Shown here piece after piece: positions 9,072-31,425 of a DNA stretch of 45,645 bases; the first letter of the stretch is position 1, and every line of letters begins with the position of its first letter. The position numbers were made by a program, and so were the translations under genes. Origin of the DNA: Pirellulales bacterium (GTDB lineage: Bacteria > Planctomycetota > Planctomycetia > Pirellulales > JALHPA01). The notes under the pieces are model-generated. The model did no database searches, was not told the origin of the DNA, and worked only from the letters and a program-made list of their open reading frames with translations. The stretch spans positions 1-45,645 of the forward strand of contig JANRLT010000010.1 in the NCBI GenBank assembly GCA_033762255.1. The letters run 5' to 3'.

Positions 9072-9800
9072 ATGCTTAAGAAGCAACCTGTTCTATCATT
9101 CACCCTGTGCTGCTGGCTCTGCGCGCTGCTTTCGCTGGCTTTGTCGCTTTTTCTGATACCGCAGCATTCCCGCGCGGACGAACCTTCCCCGGATCAACCG
9201 CGGCTTCCCCTCCTCCTGCACGAAACGTTCGACAAGGACGCCGACCGCTGGGAACCAACCGACGCCAAAGCCTGGAAGTTAGTCCAGCCCACCAACCGTG
9301 ATTCGCGGGCCTATTCCCTGTTTCAAGCCAGTAAATACAGCCCCCCCGTCCGCAGCCCGGTGAATTACAGCCTGCTAAAAGACCTTAACCTGGGCGAGTT
9401 CACGCTGGATGTACAGGCCCAAAGCACCGGTCGCGATTATGGCCACCGCGATCTTTGCCTGATCTTTGGCTATCAAGGGCCGCAGGAATTTTACTATGTC
9501 CACTTGGCCCGCAACGCCGACGATCACGCCAATCAGATTTTCATTGTCAATAAGGCCCCGCGCGTCAAAATCAGCCAGACCACCACGGAAGGGACCAAAT
9601 GGGACGACAACTGGCACAAACTCCGCCTGACTCGCAATCCCGCCGATGGTGCGATCGCCGTTTACTTTGACGACCTGGAAAAACCCGTCATGACCGCCAG
9701 TGATAAAACGTTTGCCTGGGGGCGCGTGGGCGTGGGTTCATTCGACGATACCGGCAACTTTGACGAGCTATTTTTGTATGGCGAGGAAGCCGCAAAGTAG
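9072..9800 (+). CDS. Secreted LamG/DUF1080-like beta-sandwich protein
   Basis: 242 residues from the ATG that yields a clean signal peptide (MLKKQPVLSF, then a Leu/Ala core, ending SRADE). In-frame codons upstream lack a start with a signal. The mature part reads as a concanavalin-A-like sandwich: LLHETFDKDADRWEP, FTLDVQAQSTGRDYGHRDLCL, FYYVHLARNADDHANQIFIV, WHKLRLTRNP and WGRVGVGSFDDTGNFDELFLYG. This pattern is shared with DUF1080 (3-keto-disaccharide hydrolase-like) and LamG-type domains, so carbohydrate binding or cleavage is possible but unproven. The TAG stop is formed by the GTAG foot of the first unit of the adjacent hairpin array. Confidence 0.8.
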   Translation: MLKKQPVLSFTLCCWLCALLSLALSLFLIPQHSRADEPSPDQPRLPLLLHETFDKDADRWEPTDAKAWKLVQPTNRDSRAYSLFQASKYSPPVRSPVNYSLLKDLNLGEFTLDVQAQSTGRDYGHRDLCLIFGYQGPQEFYYVHLARNADDHANQIFIVNKAPRVKISQTTTEGTKWDDNWHKLRLTRNPADGAIAVYFDDLEKPVMTASDKTFAWGRVGVGSFDDTGNFDELFLYGEEAAK

Positions 9801-10102
9801 CAGGCACGGTCCCCGTGCCGTTGAAGCGTTAATCAGCATTAGATACTGCTGGACGCTCGCGGAACGGTGACGGCTGCGGGACGCAGCCTACTACTTTTAC
9901 GTAGCAGGCACGGTCCCCGTGCCGTTGAAGCGCTAATCAGCATAGTATATTGCTGGGCACCCGTGGTACGGTGACGGCTGCGGGACGCAGCCTACTACAT
10001 TTACGTAGCAGGCACGGTCCCCGTGCCGTTGAAGCGCTAATCAGCAAAATATATTGCTGGACGCTCGCGGTACGGTGACGGCTGCGGGACGCAGCCTACT
10101 AC
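9797..10102. repeat. Three 104-bp tandem units, each an inverted pair of GTAG hairpins
   Basis: Units start at 9797, 9901 and 10005, exactly 104 bp apart. Each unit opens with GTAG-CA-GGCACGG-TCC-CCGTGCC on the plus strand (7-bp stem, TCC loop). It closes with the mirror element on the minus strand, GTAG-TA-GGCTGCG-TCC-CGCAGCC. The roughly 50-bp spacer differs by a few substitutions between units. Two inverted GTAG-footed hairpins are the layout of a REPIN/BIME mobilised in trans by RAYT (TnpA-REP) proteins, which recognise a 5' GTAG foot. The array starts inside the stop codon of the plus-strand gene and ends inside the stop codon of the convergent minus-strand gene, so it could also work as a two-way terminator. 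Confidence 0.92.
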
Positions 10103-10326
10103 TATTTACCCCCCTGCAAACGTTTAGGCAGTGTAAAGGAATACAATATCACTACCACCCCCGCCGACATGAGGCTCCAAGGAGCCCAGTCCGGCGGGGA
10201 AATTTGCGTGGTTTGGGCGTTGGGGATATCCCGGCTGCTGATAAGCGTGGCTTGTTCAATAATCAAAAACTCCACGCCCAGGATCACCGCAAAGATGCCC
10301 ACAGCCAAAAAAAACGCCCGCCACAT
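10102..10326 (-). CDS. Small conserved two-helix membrane protein
   Basis: 74 residues, MWRAFFLAVGIFAVILGVEF at the N-terminus and a second hydrophobic segment SLMSAGVVVILYSFTLP before a basic end (KRLQGGK). The middle DIPNAQTTQISPPDWAPW is probably on the far side of the membrane. An AAGGAGC ribosome-binding site lies about 7 bases before the ATG, the best in the neighbourhood. The MWRAFF...PPDW.PWSL...LYSF layout resembles short uncharacterised proteins common in Pirellulales (from memory, not searched). Its TAG stop overlaps the end of the hairpin array. Function unknown. Confidence 0.78.
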   Translation of the reverse strand: MWRAFFLAVGIFAVILGVEFLIIEQATLISSRDIPNAQTTQISPPDWAPWSLMSAGVVVILYSFTLPKRLQGGK

Positions 10327-10495
10327 GTTTATGCTCCTTAACCATGCTCCAGGAGATAGGATATCCTGCCGTGGATCGCATCCCGGGGTTGATACGTGAA
10401 GGGTTGGTTATACATTGACGGGGATAATCCTTTGGCATCGGCTATCATCGGCATTTTTGCGGCTAGCCGTTTGTTTCCCTTGACCCGGCCCAGTT

Positions 10496-11674
10496 ATGCC
10501 GACTAAAAAAACCTTGCCGCCAGGAATTTGCAACATGGCCCCGCCCCGGACCTGGCCAACCGCTATCAAGCACAATGGATGGTCCGTCCTCCCCTGTATG
10601 ATGATTACCCTATCCTGGTGGGTGGTCATGCCGATTGCGGCGATCGGGCAAATTGAATCGGATAAAACCGCGATTCCCAGGAACAGTACCATCACTGCCG
10701 CCGAGCAGACCTTGCGCGGCGCGGGTTTGACGCCTGTGGAACGGGTATGGTATCTGCCAGAGGAACTGCACCAGCGCCAGCGTTTGCCGGAATTGGAAAA
10801 GCTGGATCAGCACGCCGCCGAACTAAACCAATTGATCGCGCGGCATGTTCAAGCCCGTGAGGTTTTGCGGCAGCAAATTGTCCAATTGCAAGAAACGACT
10901 CGGACGAACCGGACCGCCGCGGCAAAATTGCCGCCAGGCGCACCTGCTAAGTTATTATTGGATAAGGAGTTCCAGCTACAATCCGCTCAATTAACCGCGG
11001 CCGAAAAGTCATTCCTCTCCGTGGAAAAATGGGCGATGGCCGCGCCGTTGGGCAATTTAACAATGGATTTATTGGCGACTCGCTCGGAATTGCTGGACGG
11101 AATATTGCAACTTTCGGCCGCCGCCCCCGTGACCGCCGCCACTTATGAGCGCTTGCGATCCGACTCGCAAATTACCGCCGCGTTGGCGGGTTTTGCGGCT
11201 CCCCAGCGATTAGGGCCGGCAAAAGCCATCGCGGCCGAGGCCAAAATTCTATCGCGTCTCGCCCAACAACAGTTGCGACAGGCTTTTTTACCCCTGGCCC
11301 GCAGCGGCAATGACTGGCTGGTGACGGGGATCTTCAATGAGCGGCACGTGCTGACCGTGGTTTGGGACGCCGAGCGTTCAGAGACGCTGTTGCCCCATAG
11401 TTTGTTCCAAAAATGGGAACTAGAGATTGATCGTGGACAAGAACCTCGACGGATTACGCTGGAGGATCAAGAAATTCAAATTCGCCCGTCAATCATAAAA
11501 ACCGTGCGATTGGGAACGGCCGCGGCCAACGACGTCACCGTGTGGGTGATGCCGGCGGAAGCGGAGCATTTTGGTCCGCGCTTGGGTTATGAGTTGCAGC
11601 AAACGCTTCGCGCGACACTGCGGCCGGAACGATTGGCGGTGGAAATCGCGGTGCCAGAACAAAAATTGCCGTAA
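10496..11674 (+). CDS. Hypothetical exported protein, possible degenerate retropepsin-like domain
   Basis: 392 residues. A hydrophobic segment (MMITLSWWVVMPIAAIG, about 36-52) may be a signal or anchor; later ATG codons at 10535 and 10598-10601 could be the true start, and none has a ribosome-binding site. The middle (about 70-250) is helical and rich in Gln, Leu and Ala, with likely coiled coil (LDQHAAELNQLIARHVQAREVL). The last 120 residues alternate beta strands in the order of a single-chain retropepsin domain: LVTGIFNERHVLTVVWDAER, SETLLPHSLFQKWEL, RITLEDQEIQIRP, VRLGTAAANDVTVWVMPAE. The expected catalytic Asp-Thr/Ser-Gly is WDAERS, so it would be inactive. The fold call is inference. 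Confidence 0.7.
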   Translation: MPTKKTLPPGICNMAPPRTWPTAIKHNGWSVLPCMMITLSWWVVMPIAAIGQIESDKTAIPRNSTITAAEQTLRGAGLTPVERVWYLPEELHQRQRLPELEKLDQHAAELNQLIARHVQAREVLRQQIVQLQETTRTNRTAAAKLPPGAPAKLLLDKEFQLQSAQLTAAEKSFLSVEKWAMAAPLGNLTMDLLATRSELLDGILQLSAAAPVTAATYERLRSDSQITAALAGFAAPQRLGPAKAIAAEAKILSRLAQQQLRQAFLPLARSGNDWLVTGIFNERHVLTVVWDAERSETLLPHSLFQKWELEIDRGQEPRRITLEDQEIQIRPSIIKTVRLGTAAANDVTVWVMPAEAEHFGPRLGYELQQTLRATLRPERLAVEIAVPEQKLP

Positions 11675-11902
11675 CCGATTTGAGTTACGTCGGCCCGCTA
11701 AAGAATAATCATGGGTACGCGATTTTTATTTAATTAGAATGCCCATAATATTGATTCGCGGCCGGTGGTTGTCTGATTATGCCCATCCGCTCAGTTGTGG
11801 CAAGGCGGTCCCCAACCAACAGCGGCGATTGTGATCCGGTGCCAAGGGCCGCCGTCCCACAATCGCCGCAGGCTTCACAATGACATTCCGTGCGCGATTA
11901 AC

Positions 11903-12574
11903 CTAGAGGCGGTTGGGTTGCGTGCCCGCGGGGACCGAATTTGCACCACCGGAAGTGTTGGTGTCGTCTACCGAATTGGTATTGGACGGGGAATTCCCCA
12001 CATCACCCGTGTTATTGCTAGGTGAGTTGCCAAACTGGGCGCGATTGGGCGATTGGTTATTTGCGCCCTGGCCGGCACCACCGCCATTATTAATATTCGC
12101 TCCCGAGTTTACGCCACCTTGGACATTTGCGCCCAAGCCGCGCCCGCTGGGATTGTTTCCTTCATAATTTTGTCCAAAAGTGGGACCGGAGCCATATTGA
12201 CCGCCCCCCGCTCCAGGACCATAAAAACCAGCTCCAGCCTGACCACCATATTGACCCTGGTAGCCGCCCTGGCTGTGAAATGCCTGGCCCTGCATCCCTT
12301 GGCCGCCATAACAGCCTTGGCCGCCAAATCCTTGGCCGCCATAGCCCTGACTTGCATAACCGCCCGATCCGCAGCAATCGGACATGGGAGGGCCGGCGTC
12401 AAAATATTGTCCACCATGACAGGTATTGACCGGAGGACAATAGGAAACCTGCTCTCCACAGCATCCACCCCCGCGATGCCGACCGCGACGATGCCGATGA
12501 CCGGCTTCCGCGGTATCCCATACACAGACCATCACTCCTAAAAATAAGAGTCCTCCCAAAAAATACTTGTTCAT
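11903..12574 (-). CDS. Gly/Gln/Asn-rich secreted low-complexity protein
   Basis: 223 residues. Signal peptide MNKYFLGGLLFLGVMVCVWD ending near AEA-G. The mature N-terminus is a basic His/Arg cluster (HRHRRGRHRGGG) followed by six Cys (CCGEQVSYC, NTC, DCC) that may form disulfides or bind metal. Next is a run of GGQG, GYGGQGFGGQG and GGQYGSG repeats, then an Asn/Ser/Gly tail ending in NSVPAGTQPNRL. An AGGAG ribosome-binding site lies 8 bases before the ATG. No enzymatic domain is visible. A structural, cell-wall or stalk-associated role is conceivable but not shown. Confidence 0.8.
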   Translation of the reverse strand: MNKYFLGGLLFLGVMVCVWDTAEAGHRHRRGRHRGGGCCGEQVSYCPPVNTCHGGQYFDAGPPMSDCCGSGGYASQGYGGQGFGGQGCYGGQGMQGQAFHSQGGYQGQYGGQAGAGFYGPGAGGGQYGSGPTFGQNYEGNNPSGRGLGANVQGGVNSGANINNGGGAGQGANNQSPNRAQFGNSPSNNTGDVGNSPSNTNSVDDTNTSGGANSVPAGTQPNRL

Positions 12575-13033
12575 CGTCCCAACTCCTCATAACAAAAGTT
12601 CAACCGGGTAATAACACGAGACTTGCCCTGGTTTTCCAGGATTAGCAAAATCCATTCCCCCCGTTTCTTCCCGGGGGGATGTAACAAATTTACCCAGCTT
12701 TTGCCAGGGAACTGTCGCTCTGGAAACCAATATGTCCCTTTGGCGTCCGCGCCTCACTCTTGTGCGTCGAACGGACTCGCTTATGAAAGCCCCCAGTAAA
12801 AAATTCGACCCGCATGGCAAATTTTTGTTGCCTTGGTAAAGAATAGTGCTCTGGCAACGATTAATTTTCGGAGGAGCCGTAGGGCGCTAGCCCACGATTA
12901 GAGCGGCAAAAACCATGGGCTAGCGCTCAGCGGCTGATCTGCCAAACTCAAATCTTTAGCTGTAACACAGCAATAGTAACCCAGAACTTTATCATGAATA
13001 TATAATTCATGCATATAAAGATGCCGCCGCGGC
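12575..13033. other. Intergenic region with two hairpins downstream of lpdA
   Basis: Two inverted repeats stand out. The first pairs TCCCCCCG (12656-12663) with CGGGGGGA (12672-12679). The second begins GTAGGGCGCTAGCCCACG at 12878 and pairs with CATGGGCTAGCGCTC ending near 12928, with a 16-base loop. The second has the GTAG foot of the REP-like family. Either could terminate leftward transcription from lpdA, though neither is followed by a strong T run on the minus strand. Nothing else is recognised. Confidence 0.6.
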
Positions 13034-20877: not shown

Positions 20878-21627
20878 ATGATTTTTGGCAAAATTTGGTC
20901 GGCGTTTGCGGCACAAATGAACAAAATCGCGAATTGGTTTTGGACTGCGGATCCTGTCGCACAAATGCAGTACGAATACGACAAGGCGGTGGAACAGCTA
21001 AAAGAAGGGCGCGAGGGGCTGGAACAATATCGCGCGCTGGTCGAGCGTGTTAGCGGCCAGGTCGCTCGGAACAAGGCCCATGTTTCCCAGTTGGAGGGAA
21101 AGGTGAAAGCCTATTTGCAAGCCGGGGATAGGGACACGGCGTCCAAATTTGCCCTGGAAATGCAAAAGGCCAAAACCGAATTGGCCGCCAATGAGGAACA
21201 ACTTAAAATGCATGAAGAGTCCTATAACAATAACGTGACCAAAATTAAGCACGCCACGCATAAACTGGCCGAGTTAAAAGAAAAAATCCACAAATACGAC
21301 GCCGAACTTAAAATGTCCAAGGCCGAGGCCGAAATGGCCAAACTGGCCCAAAGCTTTAACTTTGATGTGACCACCGACCTGGGCCAGATCGAATCGGTGA
21401 TTCAAGACAAGATTTCGCTCAATCGGGCCAAGGCGCGGGTAGCCGCGGACCTAAGCGGCGAAGGCCTGGCCACCATTAAAGCCGAGCAAGCGGCTGAAAA
21501 AGCGATGGCCGACCAGGCCCTGCGGGAATTTGAGATGCAGCTAGGGATGGTCACCCCCGATACCGCGGGCGTCACCGCCAGCCAAAAAGACCTGGGCCCC
21601 GCGGTCAAGGCGATGGAGAAGAATTGA
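20878..21627 (+). CDS. pspA: PspA/IM30 (Vipp1) family membrane-stress protein
   Basis: 249 residues. The N-terminal MIFGKIWSAFAAQMNKIANW is an amphipathic helix, then long coiled coil follows: DKAVEQLKEGREGLEQYRALVERVS, LQAGDRDTASKFALEMQKAKTEL and ELKEKIHKYDAELKMSKAEAEMAKLAQSF (broken here into shorter pieces of the same helix hairpin). The order and length agree with ESCRT-III-like PspA/IM30 proteins that polymerise on the inner membrane and repair or remodel it. AAGGA lies 8 bases before the ATG. No PspF or other Psp regulator is nearby; instead it heads a row of an AAA ATPase, a small protein and an ABC system. Its C-terminus lacks the extra Vipp1 helix. Confidence 0.9.
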   Translation: MIFGKIWSAFAAQMNKIANWFWTADPVAQMQYEYDKAVEQLKEGREGLEQYRALVERVSGQVARNKAHVSQLEGKVKAYLQAGDRDTASKFALEMQKAKTELAANEEQLKMHEESYNNNVTKIKHATHKLAELKEKIHKYDAELKMSKAEAEMAKLAQSFNFDVTTDLGQIESVIQDKISLNRAKARVAADLSGEGLATIKAEQAAEKAMADQALREFEMQLGMVTPDTAGVTASQKDLGPAVKAMEKN

Positions 21628-21937
21628 TGAAGTTGTGGGGGGGCGTGATTCGCCTGTGTAGGAGGCGTCTCTGTCGCCGAACAAAACTCAATCTAAAATT
21701 TCAAATTTGAGATTCAGATTGTGGAATTGTGTTCCCACTCCTCCGGAATGGTCCCTGTATTTGTCAACCAAACTCCAAAAACCAAATACCAAACTCCATC
21801 CTGTAAACCCCACTCCTCCAAACACCCATCGGCGACGGTGTCGCCTCCTACAAAGCTTTTATCCCTTGGGGATGATTCCTGCTTTTGTCAACCAAACTCC
21901 AAAAACCAAACTCCACTTCTCCAGCCACTCCCCCCAC
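21628..21937. repeat. Duplicated repeat block before the AAA ATPase
   Basis: In order: a GTAG hairpin (21658-21682, one mismatch in its stem), an AT-rich CTAAAATTTCAAATTTGAG segment (about 21691-21720), a 40-bp block TTTGTCAACCAAACTCC + AAAAACCAAA (21751-21797), a minus-strand GTAG hairpin (21829-21851, GGCGAC-ACC-GTCGCC), and a second copy of the 40-bp block (21874-21912). The two blocks form a near-perfect direct repeat around the hairpin. This obscures the true start of the next gene. Confidence 0.85.
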
Positions 21938-23728
21938 GTGTCCGAAACGCCCCTCCTGACCACTTCCGACGCTAAACCGCACGACGCCCTCCCCGCGTGG
22001 TATCCGGCCTGGGCGCGCGAATTGGCGGATTTGTACTTTTCCGGCACGACCTGCGTCTTTGTCCTGCATGGAAATGTCCATGACCTGATCTATTGCCAAA
22101 ACGATAAAGGAGAACCATCGTATTGCAGCCTGAACGAATTTTTGGCCGCGCAAGTCTTTGGCAAATGGGACCTGGTCCTGGGCTATGATCTGAGCCGCGG
22201 TTTGCGGGCGATGGCGGCGGGGAGCCCGGACCGCCTGCGGGGGATGATGCAGTACCTGACCGGCCGTTGGGGGGAACCAGCGGGTTGGCCCCGCGAACCG
22301 GACAAAATCCTGCTGGCGCTTGATCTGTTTATCGAACGCAACCTGCTCGATGACGAGAAAAATCGCAAAAGCCTAGCGCTCATTTTTGATTATGCCCAAT
22401 ATTTGATCTCAGCCGGAGATCTGGAATCCCTGGCCCGGGGGAATGCCGCCCGCTTAGTAAAGTTTCTTTCTTGGGCACAAAGTCCACTCATCAAACGCGT
22501 GAATATGGCGTTTGTGTTAATTGTGGACAAGCTGGTCGAAATTAGTGATCGCCTGGTCAATAGTCCCCATGTCGGCACGATTGACATTCCCCTGCCGGAT
22601 CGGACCGAACGGGAGCGGTTTGTCGCACAGGCCACCGCGGGACAAGATTTGGCCAAATTGACCGACTTTACCGCGCCTCAGTTGGTGGAATTGTCCAATG
22701 GGCTGAGCTTGACCAGCTTGGACGTGGTCCTGGCCCAAGCAGCCAAATCGGGCCGTCGGTTGGATGCCCCGCGTTATAAGCAACTCAAAAAGCAACTGTT
22801 GGAGCGGCAATGCCAGGGGTTGATTGAGTTTGTGGAACCGCGGCACACGTTGGAGCTGGTCATTGGACACGATGACGCGATCAATCGGCTGCGGGACGAT
22901 GCGGCCGCCATCCAAAATGGCCACCTTAGCCTGGCGCCGATGGGTTATTTGGTTTGTGGCCCCGTAGGGACGGGAAAAACCTGGCTGGCGGAGTGCTTTG
23001 CCGGGTCGATTGGCATTCCGTGCGTGGTGCTGAAGAACTTTCGATCAAAGTACGTCGGCGAGACCGAGGGGAACCTGGAGCAGGTGTTGTCTGTCCTGCG
23101 GTCGCTAGGCCCGGTGCTGGTGATTATTGACGAGGCGGACGCCGCGCTGGGCAATCGGCAGGCCAGCGGTGATAGCGGCACGTCGTCGCGGGTGTTTTCG
23201 ATGATTGCCAGCCAGATGGGGAACACGGCTTATAGGGGCAAAATTGTGTGGATGCTCTTAACCAGCCGTCCGGACCTCTTGCCAATTGATCTAAAGCGCC
23301 AGGGGCGGGCGGAAGTCCATATTCCGCTGCTGTATCCCCATACCGAGGATTCGGTGCGGAAGATGTTCCAGGCGATGGCGAAAAAGAATAAAATAACGCT
23401 CACGGAAGGGAATATACCCCCCATAGATATGGGGCGGCGGCTGAGCGGCGCGGATATCGAAAGCGTGGTCCTGACGGCCAAGCGGGCGGCCCTGACCGCC
23501 GGACGCAACGAATTGACCGCGGCCGACCTCGAAGCGGCCCTAGCGGAATTTATCCCCTCCGCGCAGGGTTTGGAAAAGGAATTGCAAGAAATTGCGGCGG
23601 TGCTCGAATGCACTCAGATGAGTTTTTTGCCGCCAGAATGGCAAGAGCGGGTCAAACAACCCAATGGCCGCAGCCAGTTGCAAGAGCGTATGGTGGCGAT
23701 CCGGCAATTGTTGGAGGAAGGAATGTGA
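21938..23728 (+). CDS. Ycf46-like two-domain AAA+ ATPase
   Basis: 596 residues if GTG is the start; an ATG at 21872 would add 22 residues but lies in a direct repeat. The C-terminal AAA domain is complete: Walker A GPVGTGKT (341-348), pore-like KYVGETEGNLEQVL, Walker B VLVIIDEADAALG, sensor 1 WMLLTSRPDLLP and Arg-rich LKRQGRAEVHIPL, then a lid helix region (RRLSGADIESVVLTAKRAA). The N-terminal half looks like a degenerate AAA domain: YFSGTTCVFVLHGNVHDLI, SLALIFDYAQYL in place of Walker B, and IDIPLPDRTERERFV. This twin layout is that of Ycf46-type ATPases. Located after pspA, it may remodel or regulate PspA assemblies (inference). Confidence 0.85.
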   Translation: MSETPLLTTSDAKPHDALPAWYPAWARELADLYFSGTTCVFVLHGNVHDLIYCQNDKGEPSYCSLNEFLAAQVFGKWDLVLGYDLSRGLRAMAAGSPDRLRGMMQYLTGRWGEPAGWPREPDKILLALDLFIERNLLDDEKNRKSLALIFDYAQYLISAGDLESLARGNAARLVKFLSWAQSPLIKRVNMAFVLIVDKLVEISDRLVNSPHVGTIDIPLPDRTERERFVAQATAGQDLAKLTDFTAPQLVELSNGLSLTSLDVVLAQAAKSGRRLDAPRYKQLKKQLLERQCQGLIEFVEPRHTLELVIGHDDAINRLRDDAAAIQNGHLSLAPMGYLVCGPVGTGKTWLAECFAGSIGIPCVVLKNFRSKYVGETEGNLEQVLSVLRSLGPVLVIIDEADAALGNRQASGDSGTSSRVFSMIASQMGNTAYRGKIVWMLLTSRPDLLPIDLKRQGRAEVHIPLLYPHTEDSVRKMFQAMAKKNKITLTEGNIPPIDMGRRLSGADIESVVLTAKRAALTAGRNELTAADLEAALAEFIPSAQGLEKELQEIAAVLECTQMSFLPPEWQERVKQPNGRSQLQERMVAIRQLLEEGM

Positions 23729-23931
23729 CTTTGTAGGGCGGATCGTGATCCGCCAGGATAGTGATAGAACACTTTGTAGGAGGCGACTCCGTCGCCGAAC
23801 CAGAACTTGATTTTTAAATTTGAGATTTCAAATTGCGGAATTGTACTCAACCACAACCCATCATCCACTGCTCACCTCAACACCCCATTCATAATTCATA
23901 ATTTTTAATTCTTAATTGAAAGAGGCTTCCC
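23729..23931. repeat. Two GTAG hairpins and AT-rich words after the AAA gene
   Basis: Four bases after the stop is GTAG followed by GGCGGATC-GT-GATCCGCC, a perfect 8-bp stem (23733-23754). At 23776-23799 is GTAG-GA-GGCGAC-TCC-GTCGCC-GAA. Then come TTTTAAATTTGAGATTTCAA (about 23812-23833) and ATTCATAATTCATAATTTTT (23888-23907) words. The hairpins could terminate or stabilise the AAA transcript end. The next gene has GAGG-like bases before its ATG. Confidence 0.85.
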
Positions 23932-24225
23932 ATGTCCAGTTGGTTTGACACCCAGTCCGAGACGCCCCTGATTGCCGAGATGGCCCGCAACCTCGATAGC
24001 TTTTTGGCCGCCGTGGCCGATGGCAAAGTCACCACTCAAGAGGTTTCCGCCCAGGAAGACCGCGTGGTGGCGATCATGAAAAAGCTGGAGCCAGAGTTGG
24101 CACGGCACCCCGTCTTGCATGCGCAGGTGACGGAATTGCTGGTGGAATTGACCGCCTACGACCTGATGCAGATGATGAGCATGCTGCGGGAGAGCCGCCA
24201 AAGCAAGCAAAAGCTCGTGCTGTAA
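23932..24225 (+). CDS. Small helical protein of the PspA cluster
   Basis: 97 residues, all predicted helix: SETPLIAEMARNLDSFLAAV, KVTTQEVSAQEDRVVAIMKK, LEPELARHPVLHAQVTELLV and LTAYDLMQMMSMLRESRQSK. No signal, membrane segment or cysteine. A GAAAGAGG stretch about 10 bases before the ATG may be a weak ribosome-binding site. I do not recognise the family. Position between the AAA ATPase and the ABC genes suggests an adaptor for one of them, which is only inference. Confidence 0.75.
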   Translation: MSSWFDTQSETPLIAEMARNLDSFLAAVADGKVTTQEVSAQEDRVVAIMKKLEPELARHPVLHAQVTELLVELTAYDLMQMMSMLRESRQSKQKLVL

Positions 24226-24546
24226 TTTTTCCGCGTACTAGAAAATGCATTTAGCACAAAGTCACGATGGAGTTTCCGGGCAGCACAGAGAAGGCAACAT
24301 CGTTTGAACGTCGTTCGGGCTTCAGCCAACATCCCAGCGCGGAGTGTTAGTGAACTTGTTGGTCAAATCGGACAAATAGGGCCGTTGGCTCTTTCCTGGT
24401 TTTACATTACATTGGCTTAGGACGACGCCGCGCTTGCCACATCCATAATACCACGGCTGGGATATGCGGGGCCTTCGGCCCACAAGGTAGCCAACGCCAT
24501 ATCCAACTTGCCTATTACATCCTTCATCTGAATTAGGGCACAACCC
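24226..24546. other. Intergenic gap before the SBP-OmpA gene
   Basis: Contains an AAAGTCACGATGGAG / GGGCAGCACAGAGAAGGC segment (about 24258-24297), a degenerate copy of the CACGGAG family. A GGCTGGGATATGCGG stretch follows at about 24456. No gene, hairpin terminator or promoter could be supported. Whether the ABC genes have their own promoter here is open. Confidence 0.45.
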
Positions 24547-26289
24547 ATGGCCGGACAACCCAAACCCGCCTTTTACGTCGCTTTGTTTTTGGTCATCGCG
24601 GGCCTGGTGGCGTTTGCCGCTTATCGGGCGGATCTGCTGTCGGTGCTGGCCCCGCAGGCCCCCGGAAATGGCCAACAACCAAAGGGGGGGCCGATCAACC
24701 TTCCCCCCGCCGAGGATGCCGACGCCACCGCCGTCACCACCGTCAAGGAATACAAGTACAAGCCAGCCGAAAAGCTCCCCCCCGTCGCCGGTACCTCCAA
24801 CTACCTCGCGCTTGATAAAAATGACAACACCGTCAAATTCGCGCTGAACGTCTGGGCCGGTTGGGGGCCGATCATCCTCGCGAATGAAGGGTTCAAGCCG
24901 GGCAAAATCTGGAAGACCCCCGACGGCCAGGAATTCAAGCTGGAATTGGTCCTCATCGATAATCCCATCGCCATGCGCGACGCCTACGCCGCCGGTGAAG
25001 TCCACATCGGTTGGGCGACGCTAGACATGCTGCCGTTGTTTATGGAAGGGTTTGTAGATAAGCAGGGCAAGCCCAAGGATAGCCGCGTGATGCCTCGCGT
25101 GTATCAGCAGGTCGATTGGTCCAACGGCGGGGACGGCATTGTCGTGCGGGATGATATCGTGGGGGTCAAGGGTTTGGCGGGCAAGAAAATCGTGCTAGCG
25201 CAAAACTCTCCCTCGCACTATTTCCTCTTAAATATGCTCGTCTCCGGTGGGTTGCAGCCGGGGGATGTGGATATGGTCTTTACCGATGACGCCTTTCAGG
25301 CCGCGGCAGCGTTCAACGCCAATAAGCAAGAACTGCAAGGGTGCGTCTCGTGGGCTCCGGATATTTACAATCTGGCCGAGACCAAGGGAAACAAAATGCT
25401 GGTCACCACCGGCACGGCAAATAAGCTCATCGCCGATGTCTGGTTCGCCCGGGCGGACTTTGCCAAGGATCATCCCGGCATTTGCGAGGCCCTGGTCCGG
25501 GGTATTTTTGACGCCATGGTCGATCTCAAGGATGAGGCCAAAAAATCCAAAACCGCCGAACTGATGGCCGCCGGTTACAATATTCCCGCCACCGAAACGA
25601 TCAAAATGTTCGCCGACGCCCACAACACCAATTGGGCCGAAAATTACCAATTTTTTGTCAACCAAAATAACCCCGCCAACTTTGAGCGAGTATGGAACCA
25701 AGCCTACTATCTGTACCGCAGCATCGGCTCGATCACGCATCGCAAGGTGGAGTTTGACCAGGTGATGGATTACAGCATCATCGAAAAGCTGGGCAAGGAG
25801 GACAAATACGCGCGGCAGATTGATGAATATAAGGTGCTATTGCCTCCGCGCAGCGTCAAGCAAATCGAGGCCGAATCCGACGAGATTTTAACCAATACGA
25901 TCGTCATTCATTTCTTTCCCAATAGCGCCGACCTGCATAAAAAAATCGTCAAGGAAATCGACGGCAAATCGACCGAAAGCCCCTATGATCCCAACGTGGA
26001 TCTGGTCATGAAGGACGCGGCCAGTTTATCAGCCCAGTTTGGCGCGGCCCGCATCATTATCGAGGGACACACCGACGCCTCCATGCGCGGCCGCGCGCCC
26101 GAGGCCCTGGTCAAGCAGCTTTCCGCCGACCGGGCCGAGGCCGTGCGCAAGGAACTAATCGATAAATATAAAATCGAGCCGGGCCGCATCAGTTCCATCG
26201 GTTACGGCTGGGATCGACCGGTCGAGGATGGCAACCACGCCGTCAATCGCCGCGTCGAGATCAAAGTTTACTCGGCGGAACAGCAGTAG
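24547..26289 (+). CDS. Membrane-anchored ABC substrate-binding protein fused to OmpA domain
   Basis: 580 residues. An N-terminal uncleaved-looking anchor (FYVALFLVIAGLVAFAAY, about 9-26) and linker precede an SsuA/NrtA-like periplasmic binding domain (about 95-400): LNVWAGWGPIILANEGF, AMRDAYAAGEVHIGWATLD, IVVRDDIVGVKGLAGKKIVL and PSHYFLLNMLVSGG. The C-terminal 150 residues are an OmpA/MotB peptidoglycan-binding domain: IVIHFFPNSADL, EGHTDAS with Asp510, LSADRAEAVRKEL, ISSIGYGWDRPV and NRRVEIKV with Arg568/569, the residues that normally bind diaminopimelate. The protein could therefore bridge inner membrane and wall while feeding ligand to the permease encoded next. Ligand is unknown; the binding fold suggests a small anion or similar solute. 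Confidence 0.88.
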   Translation: MAGQPKPAFYVALFLVIAGLVAFAAYRADLLSVLAPQAPGNGQQPKGGPINLPPAEDADATAVTTVKEYKYKPAEKLPPVAGTSNYLALDKNDNTVKFALNVWAGWGPIILANEGFKPGKIWKTPDGQEFKLELVLIDNPIAMRDAYAAGEVHIGWATLDMLPLFMEGFVDKQGKPKDSRVMPRVYQQVDWSNGGDGIVVRDDIVGVKGLAGKKIVLAQNSPSHYFLLNMLVSGGLQPGDVDMVFTDDAFQAAAAFNANKQELQGCVSWAPDIYNLAETKGNKMLVTTGTANKLIADVWFARADFAKDHPGICEALVRGIFDAMVDLKDEAKKSKTAELMAAGYNIPATETIKMFADAHNTNWAENYQFFVNQNNPANFERVWNQAYYLYRSIGSITHRKVEFDQVMDYSIIEKLGKEDKYARQIDEYKVLLPPRSVKQIEAESDEILTNTIVIHFFPNSADLHKKIVKEIDGKSTESPYDPNVDLVMKDAASLSAQFGAARIIIEGHTDASMRGRAPEALVKQLSADRAEAVRKELIDKYKIEPGRISSIGYGWDRPVEDGNHAVNRRVEIKVYSAEQQ

Positions 26290-26424
26290 CTTTGCCCGGG
26301 TGTATTTTTTCCATAGCTGACCGCCCCCGTAGGCCAGAATTGACATAGGACAGCTTGCCCAACGCGCCGCGGATGCTTTCCCAACCGGCATCCCTCCGCT
26401 CTTACTCGATACCTTTACGCACCC

Positions 26425-27474
26425 ATGTCCCACAGCGGCATTTGGTCACTCCGCAAAGAACTGCCCGCTTGGGCCAGATTTTTCTGGGGGGTCGTGGGCG
26501 TGGCCGCCGTCCTGGCCTTGTGGTGGTTTGTCACCTGGGGGGAACCCCGGGAAGATCGCATTTTATCACCGGCCGTTCTACCCAGCCCGGCGGAAACCTT
26601 CGCACCCGAACAACTGCACGAACTGTGGTTTGACCGCCATTTGACACTAAATACCCTGAGCAGTCTGCGCCGGTTGCTCCTTGGCTATGGCCTGGCGGTG
26701 GTGGTCGGCGTGCCGATCGGCTTATTGTGCGGCTGCTTTCCCTGGATCAAGGCGATCTTTACGCCCCATCTGGTTTTTGGGCGCAATATTCCCGTCGCCG
26801 CCCTGATTCCGCTGACGTTTTTGATCTTTGGCCTGGGCGAAACCTACAAGATTATGTTTTTGTTCCTCGCTTGTATCGCGTTTGTCATCGCGGATACGGC
26901 CAACGCCATCGAGGATGTCAGCCAGCGCTACGTCGACACGGCCTATACGCTGGGGGTGAATCGCTGGCAAATCATCTACAAGGTGTTGTTTCCCCTGGCC
27001 TTGCCCAACATTTTTAATTCGCTGCGGCTGCTCTTTGGCCTGGCCTTTGGCTATATCATGTTGGCCGAACAGGTCAAGGACACCTCCACCATTTACGCCG
27101 GCATTGGCGACATCATCAATCAATCCCAAAAGCGCAACCTTAAAGAGCCAATCATCCTGGTCCTCTTGCTCATTCCGCTGCTGGCCGTGGGTGTGGATCG
27201 GGTGCTGTTTTTTGTGCAAAAGCAACTCTTTCCCTATCAATACGGGGGCTTGGGCCTATTACAAAAATTTTGGACCTGGCTCATGCACCTAGGGGAGGAT
27301 ATCAAGCACCTGTTTATTCGCCCCATCCCCATCGCCGAATTTGACGCCACCCGCGCCGCCGCGGCCCTGCATCCCAATTCCGCCAAGAATTTGGCTCCTG
27401 CAGCGCAAAGCGTTACGACAAAAGAAGTTGCCTCAACCATTCCTCCCCGCGATCCCATCCAGGGAGGCGCGTAA
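26425..27474 (+). CDS. ABC transporter permease (SsuC/TauC/NrtB-like)
   Basis: 349 residues. After a short cytoplasmic start, helix WGVVGVAAVLALWWFVTWG is followed by the permease core: LRRLLLGYGLAVVVGVPIGL, LIPLTFLIFGLGETYKIMFL, ACIAFVIADTANAIEDVSQ, the ATPase-docking EAA loop YTLGVNRWQIIYKVLFPLAL, then FGLAFGYIMLAEQ and PIILVLLLIPLLAVGVDRV. The C-terminal 70 residues are hydrophilic and Ala-rich, longer than usual. It presumably transports the ligand of the upstream SBP-OmpA protein with the ATPase encoded one base downstream. Start is the ATG before SHSGIW; no strong ribosome-binding site. Confidence 0.93.
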   Translation: MSHSGIWSLRKELPAWARFFWGVVGVAAVLALWWFVTWGEPREDRILSPAVLPSPAETFAPEQLHELWFDRHLTLNTLSSLRRLLLGYGLAVVVGVPIGLLCGCFPWIKAIFTPHLVFGRNIPVAALIPLTFLIFGLGETYKIMFLFLACIAFVIADTANAIEDVSQRYVDTAYTLGVNRWQIIYKVLFPLALPNIFNSLRLLFGLAFGYIMLAEQVKDTSTIYAGIGDIINQSQKRNLKEPIILVLLLIPLLAVGVDRVLFFVQKQLFPYQYGGLGLLQKFWTWLMHLGEDIKHLFIRPIPIAEFDATRAAAALHPNSAKNLAPAAQSVTTKEVASTIPPRDPIQGGA

Positions 27475-27475
27475 C

Positions 27476-28459
27476 ATGGAGTCGCCCCTTTCTACCCAGA
27501 CATCCCGGACAGCCCAGCCCAACCAACCAGCCCCCGCAGGCAGTTCCCCCCCCTCCACACCCATCACCTCCAGCACCGCTGATTCCACGCCCATCGCCGA
27601 ACAGATTGGCATGGGCGTGACGCTCGCGCATCCGACGACCAAGGAGGAATTGTACGTCCCGCCGGTGGTGGAATTTCGCCACGTGGAAAAGACGTACAAC
27701 GCCGGCCAGCCAAACGCGTACACCGCGATTCGCGATATTAATTTTGTCGTGCCAGACCTGCCGGATAAGGGGGAGTTTGTGTGCATCCTCGGCCCTAGCG
27801 GCTGCGGCAAAAGCACGATCCTGCGGTTGATCGCGGGGCTGGAGCCGCAGCATCCCGCCACCAAGGGAGAGGTGCTGGTGCAGAATCAACCGGTCACGGG
27901 ACCCGGTGCCGACCGGGGGATGGTGTTTCAGGACTACACCAGCTTTGACAATCGGACCGTGCTGGACAACATCGTCTTTGGACTGGAATGCCTGGGTGTG
28001 CGGCGGGAAGAACGCTATGCCCGGGGTCGGGAATGGATCAAGCAAGTCGGGCTGAATGTGACCGCCGACGCCGAGAAATATCCGCACGAGCTGTCGGGGG
28101 GGATGAGGCAGCGGGTGGCGATCGCCCGGACGCTGATCCTCAAGCCGCGAATTATACTCATGGACGAGCCATTCGGGGCGCTCGACCCGGTGACGCGGAT
28201 GAATATGCAGGACCTCCTAGTCAAACTGTGGCGGGACGTGCAGGCGACGGTGTTTTTTATCACGCACAGCATCGAGGAGGCGGTGTTCCTGGGGGACCGG
28301 GTGTACATTATGAGCAACGCCCCGGGGACAATCCTTGAGGAGCTAAAAATTGAACCGGCGGACAAACCGGCCAAGCAAATGCAAAGCGAGCCGCGCTTTC
28401 AAGAAACCGTCCGTTACCTGCGCGAAAAAATCGCCAATTTGGAAATGGGGAAAGACTAA
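27476..28459 (+). CDS. ABC transporter ATP-binding protein (SsuB/NrtD-like)
   Basis: 327 residues. AGGGAGG lies 8 bases before the ATG, inside the end of the permease gene; the permease stop and this start are one base apart. A Pro/Ser/Thr-rich extension of about 60 residues precedes the nucleotide-binding domain, which is not usual in the family. Motifs: Walker A GPSGCGKS (106-113), Q-loop Gln152, signature LSGGM (206-210), Walker B ILMDEP (Asp230, Glu231) and switch His264. It powers import through the preceding permease. It is the last gene of the six-gene PspA-to-ABC row; a repeat array starts 13 bases after the stop. Confidence 0.95.
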   Translation: MESPLSTQTSRTAQPNQPAPAGSSPPSTPITSSTADSTPIAEQIGMGVTLAHPTTKEELYVPPVVEFRHVEKTYNAGQPNAYTAIRDINFVVPDLPDKGEFVCILGPSGCGKSTILRLIAGLEPQHPATKGEVLVQNQPVTGPGADRGMVFQDYTSFDNRTVLDNIVFGLECLGVRREERYARGREWIKQVGLNVTADAEKYPHELSGGMRQRVAIARTLILKPRIILMDEPFGALDPVTRMNMQDLLVKLWRDVQATVFFITHSIEEAVFLGDRVYIMSNAPGTILEELKIEPADKPAKQMQSEPRFQETVRYLREKIANLEMGKD

Positions 28460-28472
28460 GTGCAGGGGTGAG

Positions 28473-28999
28473 GTTTAGCCGCGACGCGCAGCGGAGCGCG
28501 CCAGAGTGGAACCAGGGATAAGGAACGCGGGACACAAACCCGTAGCGGCGACATTCCGTCGCCGATCTGTTCGTAGCGGCAAGTTGTACTCGCCAATCAG
28601 GCTTTTGATTTTTTTACAGCCGCTCTTTGTTTAGCCGCGACGCGCAGCGGAGCGCGCTGCGGCGGAACCAGGGATAAGGAACGCGGGACGCGAACCCGTA
28701 GCGGCGACATTTTGTCGCCGATCTGGTCGTAGCGGCGAGTTGTACTCGCCAATCAGGCTTTTGGTTTTTTTGCGGCAGCTCTTTGTTTAGCCGCGATGCG
28801 CAGCGGAGCGCGCTGCGGCGCAACCAGGGGCGAGGGACGCGGGACGTGAGTCGCAGGGATATTCTGTCGCCGATCTGTTCGTAGCGGCAAGTTGTACTCG
28901 CCAATCTGGTTTTTGGTTTTTTTTGCGGCAGCTCTTTGTTTAGCCGCGATGCGCAGCGGAGCGCGCTGCGGGACGCGGGACGCGGGACGCGGGATGAGA
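28473..28999. repeat. Tandem array of ~145-165 bp units carrying GTAG hairpins
   Basis: Units begin TTTAGCCGCGACGCGCAG or TTTAGCCGCGATGCGCAG at 28473, 28630, 28796 and 28939 (spacings 157, 166 and 143; the last is partial). Each full unit then carries GCGGAGCGCGC, AACCAGGG, GGGACGCG and two GTAG hairpins in direct order: GTAG-C-GGCGAC-ATTCC-GTCGCC and GTAG-C-GGCGAGT-TGT-ACTCGCC. It ends with a T-run and GCGGCAGCTCTTTG. Stems of individual copies carry scattered substitutions. A lone copy of the unit head recurs at about 31438, just after the serpin gene. The rest of the gap to the serpin start (29000-29232) holds no recognised repeat. Confidence 0.92.
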
Positions 29000-29232: not shown

Positions 29233-31425
29233 ATGCGAACGGCGATAACGTGGGTTTGCCTAGGATTGGTGCTTTGTGCGGGTTGGACATTGATCGCGTC
29301 GGCGTTTCAAAGGGGCTTAGCGTATGAACCGCCCCGTCCGCTGGTTCGCACGGGGCCGTTTGTCGCGCAGGTTGCCACGCAACCGACGAAGGCACCAACA
29401 CCAGGGGCCGCAACAGCGCTTGATGCGGGCGTGCAGACGATCGTTCCCCCGACCGGTAATCTAACGAATCCGCAAGCAGCCAAAAACACTCAGCAAACCC
29501 AGCCGCTGGAACCGACCCCCGAAGAGCGCATTCTCGCAACCTTGCGCGAACCGACGGAATTTGACCTAAAAGACGCCACCATCGAACAGATTGCCACCTA
29601 CGTGGCGGAACGACACAAACTGAACGTGTTCGTGGATCACAAAGCCTTGAATGACGAAAACTTTGATATAAGTACAAAGTTCAACTTCCGGGCCAAGAAT
29701 CTACAACTGCGCGAGGCGCTCCGCTTAGTGCTAGATCACCATGACCTAAGCTATCTGATCCAGGAAGCCGCCCTGGTCCTCACCACAAAAAATGAAGCAA
29801 TCAATCATTTGCTAATCCGTGTCCACTATGTGGGGGACATCCTCACCCCGGATGAAAATGGCGAGTGCGATGTGCTGGGGCTAATTGAAGTGGTTAGTAG
29901 CACCGTCCAACAAGATTCTTGGAAAGAGAGCGGTGGACAAGGTTGCATGGCCGGATTTGGCCAGTCGCGGTTGGTCGTCAGCAATACTAATGAAGTTCAT
30001 GAAAAGATTGAGGATTTGCTAGCACGAATTCGCCGCGACATCCACCTGCATCCCGATCCTCCGGCCAGTAAGCCCAGTCCCAATGGCCCAAGCCGCCCCA
30101 AACAAAGTAGTACATCCAAAATCGAGGAATTGCTGGGGCTAAAGCCCGACAAGCCCGCGGTGCAAATGGCGGCGTTGCCCCTGACCAACGCCCACAAACA
30201 AGCCGCGCGGGCCATTAACCAATTTGGCATTGATTTTCACCATCGGCAGGCGGCCGCGCAACCGGACGAGAACTATTTTTGCTCCCCCCTCAGCATTGCG
30301 ACTGTGTTGGGGATGAGCGCGTTGGGTGCCAAGGAAAAAACCCTAGCGGAAACCTGCCGCGTCCTGCATTGGGAAGAAAACGGCCAGCCGCGCCCCTACC
30401 ATGCCGAGACCGGCGAACTGCTGGCCGATCTGCTGCGGGCGAACCAGACCGAAGATGTAAAAATCACCAACCAGCAGGCGCTGTGGGTGCAAAAAGGCTT
30501 GCCGTTGCAGGACTCCTTTACCACCATCCTAAAGCGTGACTACCAATCAACGCCGCGCATCCTTGATTTTGCGCTGGAGACAAACGCCGCGCGGCAGGGG
30601 TTAGGGGACTGGGGCCGCGAACAGGGTTTTGCCGAGCTTCCCGGCTTCGGCGAGGCAATCACGGCTGATACCCGCTTTTTCCTGGCCAATGCGATCAATT
30701 TTAAGGGGCGCTGGCAGCACGAATTTGATAAAGACAGCACCAAGTACAAGCCGTTTTATCTGGCAAACGGCCAGGCGATGCGCACCAACTATCTAATCCA
30801 AAAAGAGGAATTTGAATACGCCAAAACGGACGAGTGCAAGCTGCTGCGGTTGCCATATCGGCAAACTCGGTTCGGCTGCGTGTATCTGCTGCCCAAAAAT
30901 CGCGACGGACTTCCCGCCCTGGAAAAATCCCTTACCGAACAAAAACTACGCGAGTTGCTGGCCCAGCTTAAGCCGGTCTCGCTGGATGTGGAGGTTCCCA
31001 AATTCAAAATGAGCTGGCAGGGAAATTTAATCAAAGACCTGAAGGCCCTGGGGATGAGTGCGCCGTTTGACCAGGAACAAGCGGATTACTCGGGAATGAC
31101 ACCGCGCCCACCGGAGGGGCTGTGGGTGCAGTCCATCATGCATCAAGCGGAGGTCGAATTTGACGAAGAGGGGACCACGGCCAAGGCGGTGACGGTTATG
31201 GGTTATGCTGGTGCCATCGTGGAGGAGCCGCCGTCGTTTCGTGCGTATCATCCGTTTTTGTTCTTGATCATGGACCAGCACAGCGGGCTGATTTTGTTCA
31301 TGGGGCGATTTACCGATCCGGCTAAAGCAGTGGGAAGCCAGGATGCCTTGAACGGGGTGGAATTGTCACCGCCACCGGCAAATCCTCCCCCGGAACGACC
31401 CCGGCAAAGTGGAGGAATTTTTTAA
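29233..31425 (+). CDS. Secreted STN-like domain fused to serpin
   Basis: 730 residues. GGAGGA lies about 7 bases before the ATG. Signal or anchor helix: ITWVCLGLVLCAGWTLIASAF. After a Thr/Pro linker, residues about 96-265 resemble the STN/secretin N-terminal fold frequent in planctomycete proteins (LKDATIEQIATYVAERHKLN, LRLVLDHHDLSYLIQEA, LVVSNTNEVHEKIEDLL). Residues about 326-705 are a full serpin: YFCSPLSIATVLGMSALGA, FFLANAINFKGRW, EVPKFKMSW and the signature HPFLFLIMDQHSGLILFMGR. The reactive-loop hinge is EEGTTAKAVT with P15 Gly647; by counting, P1 is about Ala661 and P1' Ile662. That would suit an elastase-like target, if inhibitory. Lys at P11 and Val at P9 are less typical of inhibitors. 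Confidence 0.9.
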   Translation: MRTAITWVCLGLVLCAGWTLIASAFQRGLAYEPPRPLVRTGPFVAQVATQPTKAPTPGAATALDAGVQTIVPPTGNLTNPQAAKNTQQTQPLEPTPEERILATLREPTEFDLKDATIEQIATYVAERHKLNVFVDHKALNDENFDISTKFNFRAKNLQLREALRLVLDHHDLSYLIQEAALVLTTKNEAINHLLIRVHYVGDILTPDENGECDVLGLIEVVSSTVQQDSWKESGGQGCMAGFGQSRLVVSNTNEVHEKIEDLLARIRRDIHLHPDPPASKPSPNGPSRPKQSSTSKIEELLGLKPDKPAVQMAALPLTNAHKQAARAINQFGIDFHHRQAAAQPDENYFCSPLSIATVLGMSALGAKEKTLAETCRVLHWEENGQPRPYHAETGELLADLLRANQTEDVKITNQQALWVQKGLPLQDSFTTILKRDYQSTPRILDFALETNAARQGLGDWGREQGFAELPGFGEAITADTRFFLANAINFKGRWQHEFDKDSTKYKPFYLANGQAMRTNYLIQKEEFEYAKTDECKLLRLPYRQTRFGCVYLLPKNRDGLPALEKSLTEQKLRELLAQLKPVSLDVEVPKFKMSWQGNLIKDLKALGMSAPFDQEQADYSGMTPRPPEGLWVQSIMHQAEVEFDEEGTTAKAVTVMGYAGAIVEEPPSFRAYHPFLFLIMDQHSGLILFMGRFTDPAKAVGSQDALNGVELSPPPANPPPERPRQSGGIF

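Follow-up and report, generated by a model that had tools for sequence, protein, structure and literature searches.

A planctomycete gene row joining a PspA-family protein and a double AAA ATPase to an ABC importer with a wall-binding domain: a candidate analogue of ESCRT-III and Vps4

The DNA analysed here (the window: positions 1 to 45,645 of contig JANRLT010000010.1, or C10, in the 5.47 Mb genome of a Pirellulales bacterium, GCA_033762255.1) contains a row of six genes. They encode a PspA/IM30-family protein, a double AAA ATPase, a small helical protein (SM97), a substrate-binding protein (SBP) fused to an OmpA-like domain (SBP-OmpA), and the permease and ATPase of an ATP-binding cassette (ABC) importer; in relatives, a protein composed of a hydrophobic hairpin and a coiled coil (TMCC) is a regular seventh member. 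The row is conserved more than chance would allow. There is about an even chance that it constitutes a bacterial analogue of the ESCRT-III/Vps4 pair, in which the AAA ATPase would pull on PspA polymers via their tails, joined to a wall-anchored importer.

Conservation of the gene row

All six open reading frames (ORFs) lie on the + strand with no unrelated gene between them, as the initial annotation described, and the adjacency that it suggested does extend far beyond close relatives. The exact order PspA-AAA-SM97-SBP-OmpA-permease-ATPase is present in 55 of 80 named loci, the best 80 of 158 relatives matched by the SBP-OmpA profile in genome contigs. Their records give Planctomycetota in 78 cases, Deltaproteobacteria in one (L140), and merely "bacterium" in another (L130). 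The remaining 25 contain SBP-permease-ATPase (8), other partial sets (16), or the SBP alone (1), and in 20 of them the contig ends on the side of the missing genes. Four loci are incomplete despite sufficient room (L144, L158, L184, and L185). For L158, L184, and L185, the AAA gene is present at another place in the genome; none was found in the genome of L144 (G443, completeness not stated), which keeps the importer and TMCC. L118 was scored without SM97 in the order count, although a per-domain search does show it. Median gaps along the row are 160, 84, 83.5, 6, and -52 bp (n = 59-71; ORF starts called mechanically), sizes that would be typical of one transcription unit.

In a sample of 57 relatives that counts the window's own genome, the window and six of the other 56 genomes (G008, G021, G025, G034, G036, and G048) have the full order; the rows of G011 and G001 are interrupted by contig ends. 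SM97 is matched in 13 of the 57 genomes, AAA strongly in 12 (some AAA match is present in all 57), and SBP-OmpA strongly in 9 (in 23 at E up to 0.001); all nine genomes with strong SBP-OmpA also have the AAA. Smaller sets are also found: PspA-SM97 only (G006), SM97 alone (G039), PspA-AAA together with SM97 elsewhere in the genome (G009 and G026), and AAA-SM97 on one contig with ATPase-TMCC on another (G023). About ten genomes occur both among the named loci and among the G-numbered genomes, and the two sets therefore overlap.

The phylum-wide sample covers 392 genomes for SM97, AAA, and SBP-OmpA, and 384 for PspA, with cut-offs of E up to 1e-30 for AAA, 1e-15 for SBP-OmpA, and 1e-12 for PspA of this kind. 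SM97 is matched in 16 of the 392 genomes (12 strong), AAA in 67, and SBP-OmpA in 55; PspA of this kind is found in 37 of 384. AAA accompanies PspA in 35 of these 37 genomes (the exceptions are G186 and G241) and SBP-OmpA in 46 of 55. Inspection of gene order in 40 stretches fetched from this sample reveals a second row type, without SM97: PspA-SBP-permease-ATPase-hairpin protein-AAA, the hairpin protein being TMCC-like (G286, G201, and G341). In its variant (G112 and G225), the order is permease-ATPase-hairpin protein-AAA-220 to 247-aa protein-PspA-SBP, with a 940-aa ORF between the AAA and the 220 to 247-aa protein in G112. The hairpin protein matches the TMCC profile in 14 of 17 loci tested (40-281 bits; none in L086, L096, and L036). 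Some of the 40 stretches contain PspA-AAA without importer genes nearby. Because the second row type holds the same partners in a different order, the adjacency is not mere inertia, and partners that stay together while their order changes indicate a shared task.

In rows of the second type, a protein of 203-220 aa, over no family cut-off, follows the AAA at L079:11408-12019, L080:8662-9273, and L082:9353-10015, and perhaps takes the place of SM97. Two tandem SBP-OmpA genes occur in one such row (L081 in G171, 9463-13005, - strand). Apart from these rows, a diverged relative set in L036 (G016:C4, 6073-12687, - strand) comprises an AAA protein (27% identical), an SBP-like protein without a Pfam match of its own, a VWA protein, and an OmpA protein with a weak NMT1 match; the locus contains no PspA of this kind, and an ORF resembling a permease follows after another 3-4 kb.

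Table 1. Features of the gene row and their positions in the window
Feature	Position	Strand	Basis or remark
PspA/IM30-family (ESCRT-III superfamily) protein, 249 aa	20878..21627	+	PF04012
PspA C-terminal tail motif K-D-L-G-P (residues 237-241), candidate AAA docking tag	21586..21600	+	sequence
Double AAA ATPase (p97/Rix7-like layout), degenerate first domain	21872..23728 (start uncertain)	+	PF00004, model vs PDB, single Walker A
Walker A GPVGTGKT, active AAA domain	22958..22981	+	sequence
Pore-loop-like Y-V-G (SKYVGE), active AAA domain	23051..23059	+	sequence
SM97, small helical protein, 97 aa, family without name	23932..24225	+	
SBP fused to OmpA-like domain	24547..26289	+	N-terminal hydrophobic segment 24568-24624; OmpA domain ~26017-26250
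ABC importer permease (taurine/nitrate/sulfonate type)	26425..27474	+	PF00528 (BPD_transp_1); NCBIfam matches below cut-off
ABC importer ATPase	27476..28459	+	PF00005 (ABC_tran); Walker A, LSGG, Walker B
Non-coding tandem repeat, 152-156-nt unit, ~3 copies	28473..28971	.	occupies place of TMCC in relatives

PspA tail motif and the double AAA ATPase

The PspA of the window matches PF04012 with 50.5 bits (cut-off 33.9) over residues 1-195, corresponding to positions 1-189 of the 220 in the profile, and is the sole match to this family in its genome at E up to 0.001. In agreement with the initial annotation, a Pfam scan finds no PspF, PspB, or PspC domain among the six products (the rest of the genome was not searched for them).

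The C-terminal end of PspA in these rows is a flexible tail bearing the motif K-x-(L/M/I)-G; in 32 of 60 named copies, P comes next. This motif lies within the last 30 residues of 59 of the 60, as compared with 1.65 of 60 shuffled tails and none of 13 ordinary PspA_IM30 paralogs from the same order, the paralogs being PspA matches with a known locus that fall outside the present type. The single miss (L184) carries R-L-G-P in register, and its AAA is encoded on another contig of the genome. Among 34 of the 37 PspA proteins from the phylum sample (G169, G324, and G331 left out), the K form falls within the last 30 residues in 31; it lies further in in G225, and R replaces K in G184 and G341. 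A looser rule (K or R, last 50 residues) covers all 34, but also takes in 1 of the 13 paralogs and 3.5 of 60 shuffled tails. PspA encoded within 3 kb of the AAA has the motif in 87 of 88 fetched loci, duplicates included, the match in L087 being discounted as it falls inside a helix. Column entropies in the tail amount to 0.12 (K), 0.56 (L), and 0.0 bits (G), versus 2.1-2.9 bits in the four preceding columns. As the AAA is the sole partner common to the tag-bearing rows (SM97, SBP-OmpA, and TMCC are each absent from some), the tail motif is a likely candidate for an AAA docking site. It recalls MIM motifs, but is not known to correspond to any of them.

The AAA protein matches PF00004 with 79 bits. 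Its ORF opens with TTG at 21707, and alignment with relatives sets in at 21998. Two copies of a 52-nt repeat, at 21740-21791 and 21864-21915, make the start uncertain, the ATG at 21872 being the likelier choice. Elements of 27 nt, in direct or inverted copies, are located at 21654, 21829, and 23772. The pairing of PspA with an AAA protein whose first domain is degenerate, proposed at the outset, is upheld by the single Walker A motif of the protein, located within the second domain. As to its original label, Ycf46-like, no Ycf46 model is matched in Pfam or NCBIfam; the layout with a degenerate first AAA domain would fit that family.

An AlphaFold2 model of the AAA protein, built from 44 sequences (predicted local distance difference test, pLDDT, 88), resembles the double AAA protein Rix7 (Foldseek E 8e-20, template-modelling score 0.51). 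Residues 1-538 superpose on p97 D1-D2 with a Z-score of 22.2 and a root-mean-square deviation (rmsd) of 8.2 over 464 residues, a high value that may reflect the relative placement of the two domains in the model. The second domain taken by itself fits p97 D2 (PDB ID: 3cf0; Z 21.8, rmsd 2.9 over 259) and Vps4 (PDB ID: 4d82, Z 21.0, rmsd 3.4 over 250; PDB ID: 3eih, Z 20.9, rmsd 3.4 over 262). No MIT domain is matched in Pfam at E up to 0.1 in the protein read from 21869, and the N-terminal half of the model fits p97 D1. The Y-V-G following Walker A resembles pore loop 1 of AAA unfoldases.

SM97, TMCC, and the importer

The small helical protein SM97, which was not recognised in the initial annotation either, is over no family cut-off in Pfam or NCBIfam. 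Sequence comparison with the PDB yields no substantial match (the best, at E 0.064, is to a designed protein). Its AlphaFold2 model (pLDDT 89) consists of two short helices and a long hairpin; Foldseek returns no PDB match for it, from which a new fold does not follow. The possibility that SM97 is a piece of PspA or of TMCC was rejected on negative profile comparisons. It represents an unnamed family whose occurrence follows that of PspA and AAA. A C-terminal F-x-G end is present in 62 of 68 named copies. It is lost in G039, where SM97 stands alone, in G117, whose AAA has no adjacent PspA, and in G185, which has both PspA and AAA; it is retained in the AAA-less G006, a pattern that could not be matched to a single partner.

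Six genes do not make up the full row, as had been assumed: TMCC, a protein of ~285 aa, was overlooked. Clustering of flanking ORFs places it directly after the ATPase on the same strand in 28 of 55 full loci, and a profile search finds it in 40 of the 45 full loci with at least 1.5 kb to the right. In four of the other five, the ORF that contains the match was called with a start inside the ATPase; L174 alone lacks a match. Strong TMCC matches occur in 10 of the 57 relatives, i.e., all nine with strong SBP-OmpA and G023, while G006 shows a weak partial match (2e-13). TMCC is not found in the window by tblastn. The copy of this genome (51% identical to that of L114) is located at C7:74491-75351 (- strand), adjoining no other gene of the set. 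TMCC was rejected as a plain membrane protein, as its N-terminal hairpin exceeds the hydropathy threshold in 23 of 28 copies and the window genome's own copy fails; as a PspA/Snf7 homologue with a membrane segment it was rejected after a negative profile comparison with PspA. Right after the tandem repeats of the window (29233-31425, + strand), a protein with a serpin domain (287 bits) is encoded, the N-terminal part of which is STN-like (17 bits, below cut-off). Bacterial serpins are uncommon.

A wall-binding domain on the binding protein was correctly noted from the start: the OmpA domain scores 42.3 bits, and NMT1_2 23.7 bits, slightly under its cut-off of 24.7. The protein of the window has one N-terminal hydrophobic segment (residues 8-26), as have 72 of 74 copies, and a simple pattern detects no lipobox. 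GHTD (72 of 74 copies) and LSxxRA (66 of 74), the residues by which OmpA-like domains hold peptidoglycan, align with Omp38 (PDB ID: 3td3). With an inner-membrane anchor and a wall-binding end, the layout would recall MotB. The window's SBP aligns with taurine-binding protein over residues 193-321, and its nearest binding proteins are of the taurine, sulfonate, or putative urea type, below curated cut-offs. At the sequence level, the module has the parts of a type I ABC importer: an ATPase with Walker A, LSGG, and Walker B, a permease domain, and a binding protein.

Proposed function and relation to known systems

Members of the PspA family polymerise on the inner face of the cytoplasmic membrane, and a polymer of the row's PspA would coat this face. 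The double AAA ATPase, with a dead D1, an active D2, and the Y-V-G pore loop, might bind the K-x-(L/M/I)-G tag in the flexible tail of PspA and extract subunits from the polymer, as Vps4 does with ESCRT-III. SM97 could be a small adaptor of the PspA-AAA core, as its co-occurrence with them suggests. The importer module would consist of the permease, the ATPase, the binding protein, and TMCC; the N-terminal helix of the binding protein probably anchors it in the inner membrane, while its OmpA domain would grip the cell wall, and the hairpin and coiled coil of TMCC may link the importer to the PspA coat. More tentative is the fuller proposal that Planctomycetes own a dedicated ESCRT-like machine, in which a PspA tail tag (K-x-Phi-G-P) serves a p97-like AAA remodelase, with SM97 as adaptor and TMCC as the linker coupling it to the wall-anchored importer. 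A coupling of envelope damage sensing to an importer, suggested originally, would fit the strong co-inheritance, but PspA, AAA, and SM97 also occur in genomes with no strong SBP-OmpA match.

Several observations weigh against this reading. The link between motif and AAA depends on one AAA-less genome, G006 (single contig, 95% complete; PspA and SM97 present, no AAA found), whose PspA tail lacks the motif. The PspA proteins of G241 and G186 keep it with no AAA detected (81-82% complete), the more distant PspA proteins of G164 (L087) and G059 (L084) lack it though the AAA is present, and ordinary PspA proteins from this bacterial order function with no such tag. The window's own SM97 ends in KQKLVL (24193-24222) and has lost the F-x-G end. 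Distances of PspA, AAA, and SM97 correlate at 0.87-0.88 with SBP and 0.86-0.91 with TMCC, but less with the permease (0.71-0.80) and the ATPase (0.41-0.48); the full set of ATPase values (0.34-0.56) may be blurred by miscalled ORF ends, and distance correlations show co-inheritance only. The coupling of core and importer may also be loose, since the modules separate in several genomes. Finally, the counts across loci and genomes are not phylogenetically independent.

Two independent units, i.e., membrane care by PspA-AAA-SM97 and a nutrient importer, might share a neighbourhood and be held together mainly by co-inheritance. The core occurs without a strong SBP-OmpA match in G009, G026, G427, and G185, SBP-OmpA and the permease lie 8 Mb from it in G359, and G443 keeps its importer without a detected AAA. 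The initial annotation had pointed to 24.2-24.5 kb as a potential seam, and modules do separate in some genomes; the gap at this place is 321 bp in the window, whereas in relatives it is usually short (median 83.5 bp; above 200 bp in 12 of 70). The nine-for-nine presence of AAA with strong SBP-OmpA, the retention of the partners in rows of the second type, and the correlations of the core with SBP and TMCC argue against separate units, an explanation that is rather unlikely.

Less probable still is that the AAA protein acts as an assembly or quality-control chaperone of the importer complex, with PspA merely shielding the surrounding membrane. It would account for the diverged AAA that adjoins an SBP-like protein in G016, where no PspA of this kind is present, and for the excess of AAA-positive over PspA-positive genomes (67 of 392 vs 37 of 384, at different cut-offs). 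However, PspA and AAA occur together with no match to SBP-OmpA in nine genomes (G065, G083, G185, G228, G305, G306, G356, G364, and G427), and the tail motif is kept in the PspA of all nine; several of these genomes are incomplete, and the genes of G065 lie on different contigs.

The SBP-OmpA and ABC parts could also form a sensor of wall or solute state, signalling to PspA through TMCC, instead of a nutrient importer. The binding protein does look fixed at both ends, judging by the frequency of its hydrophobic segment and GHTD, and the rows of G164 and G184 comprise PspA, AAA, and SBP-OmpA-like and TMCC-like proteins with no permease match. In the window, however, the permease and ATPase families and the ATPase motifs are intact, and the SBP aligns with a taurine-binding protein. 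A sensor of this sort is quite improbable. A defence system was rejected, as PADLOC matches are weak or generic (coiled-coil to PspA, IetA with 59.8 bits on the AAA domain, mad3 with 101 bits on the ABC ATPase).

As a gene set, the row is of a known kind. Contrary to the initial view that no described system has the full set, section 18 of Ravi et al. (2024, PMC11237479) describes all of it except the 97-aa protein: PspA with a double AAA protein (dead N-terminal copy), an ABC ATPase, a permease, and a PBPB-OmpA protein (e.g., OGG56892.1), for which ESCRT-like remodelling tied to transport is proposed. The present row shares these five components with those operons. That section names no 97-aa protein, fixed order, or PspA tail motif, and the 'Snf7 homologs with a TM segment' that it mentions might be TMCC or a different protein. 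The additions made here are the tail tag, the constancy of the gene order, SM97, and the regular presence of TMCC as a seventh component, though the supplements may already hold SM97, TMCC, or the motif. For follow-up of that work, SM97 and TMCC constitute two relevant unnamed components. No mention of the row was found by word search and in two passages of Popp et al. (2022), or in selected passages of Makarova et al. (2024, PMC10936438).

Canonical Psp systems (PspF-ABC, Lia, and PspMN) have the PspA effector in common with the row; it lacks PspF, PspB, and PspC among its six products, and its AAA protein is of the classical remodelling type and not an enhancer-binding activator. The importers TauABC, SsuABC, and NrtABC represent the same permease, ATPase, and binding-protein families, all listed NCBIfam matches being below cut-off, whereas the row's binding protein adds a hydrophobic segment at the N terminus and an OmpA-like domain. 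In the passages of Makarova et al. (2024) considered, systems with both vps4 and ESCRT-III are confined to archaea and eukaryotes, and Liu et al. (2021, PMC8281802) leave open both whether PspF acts in a Vps4-like manner and whether an equivalent ATPase assists Vipp1. Unlike Vps4, the AAA protein of the row carries a degenerate AAA domain ahead of the active one and gives no MIT match. As in archaeal and eukaryotic ESCRT-III/Vps4 systems, a gene of the ESCRT-III superfamily lies directly upstream of a classical AAA gene, the active domain of which superposes on Vps4. The row offers a clear candidate for a Vps4-like motor of bacterial PspA, with a short tag that is testable by a single truncation.

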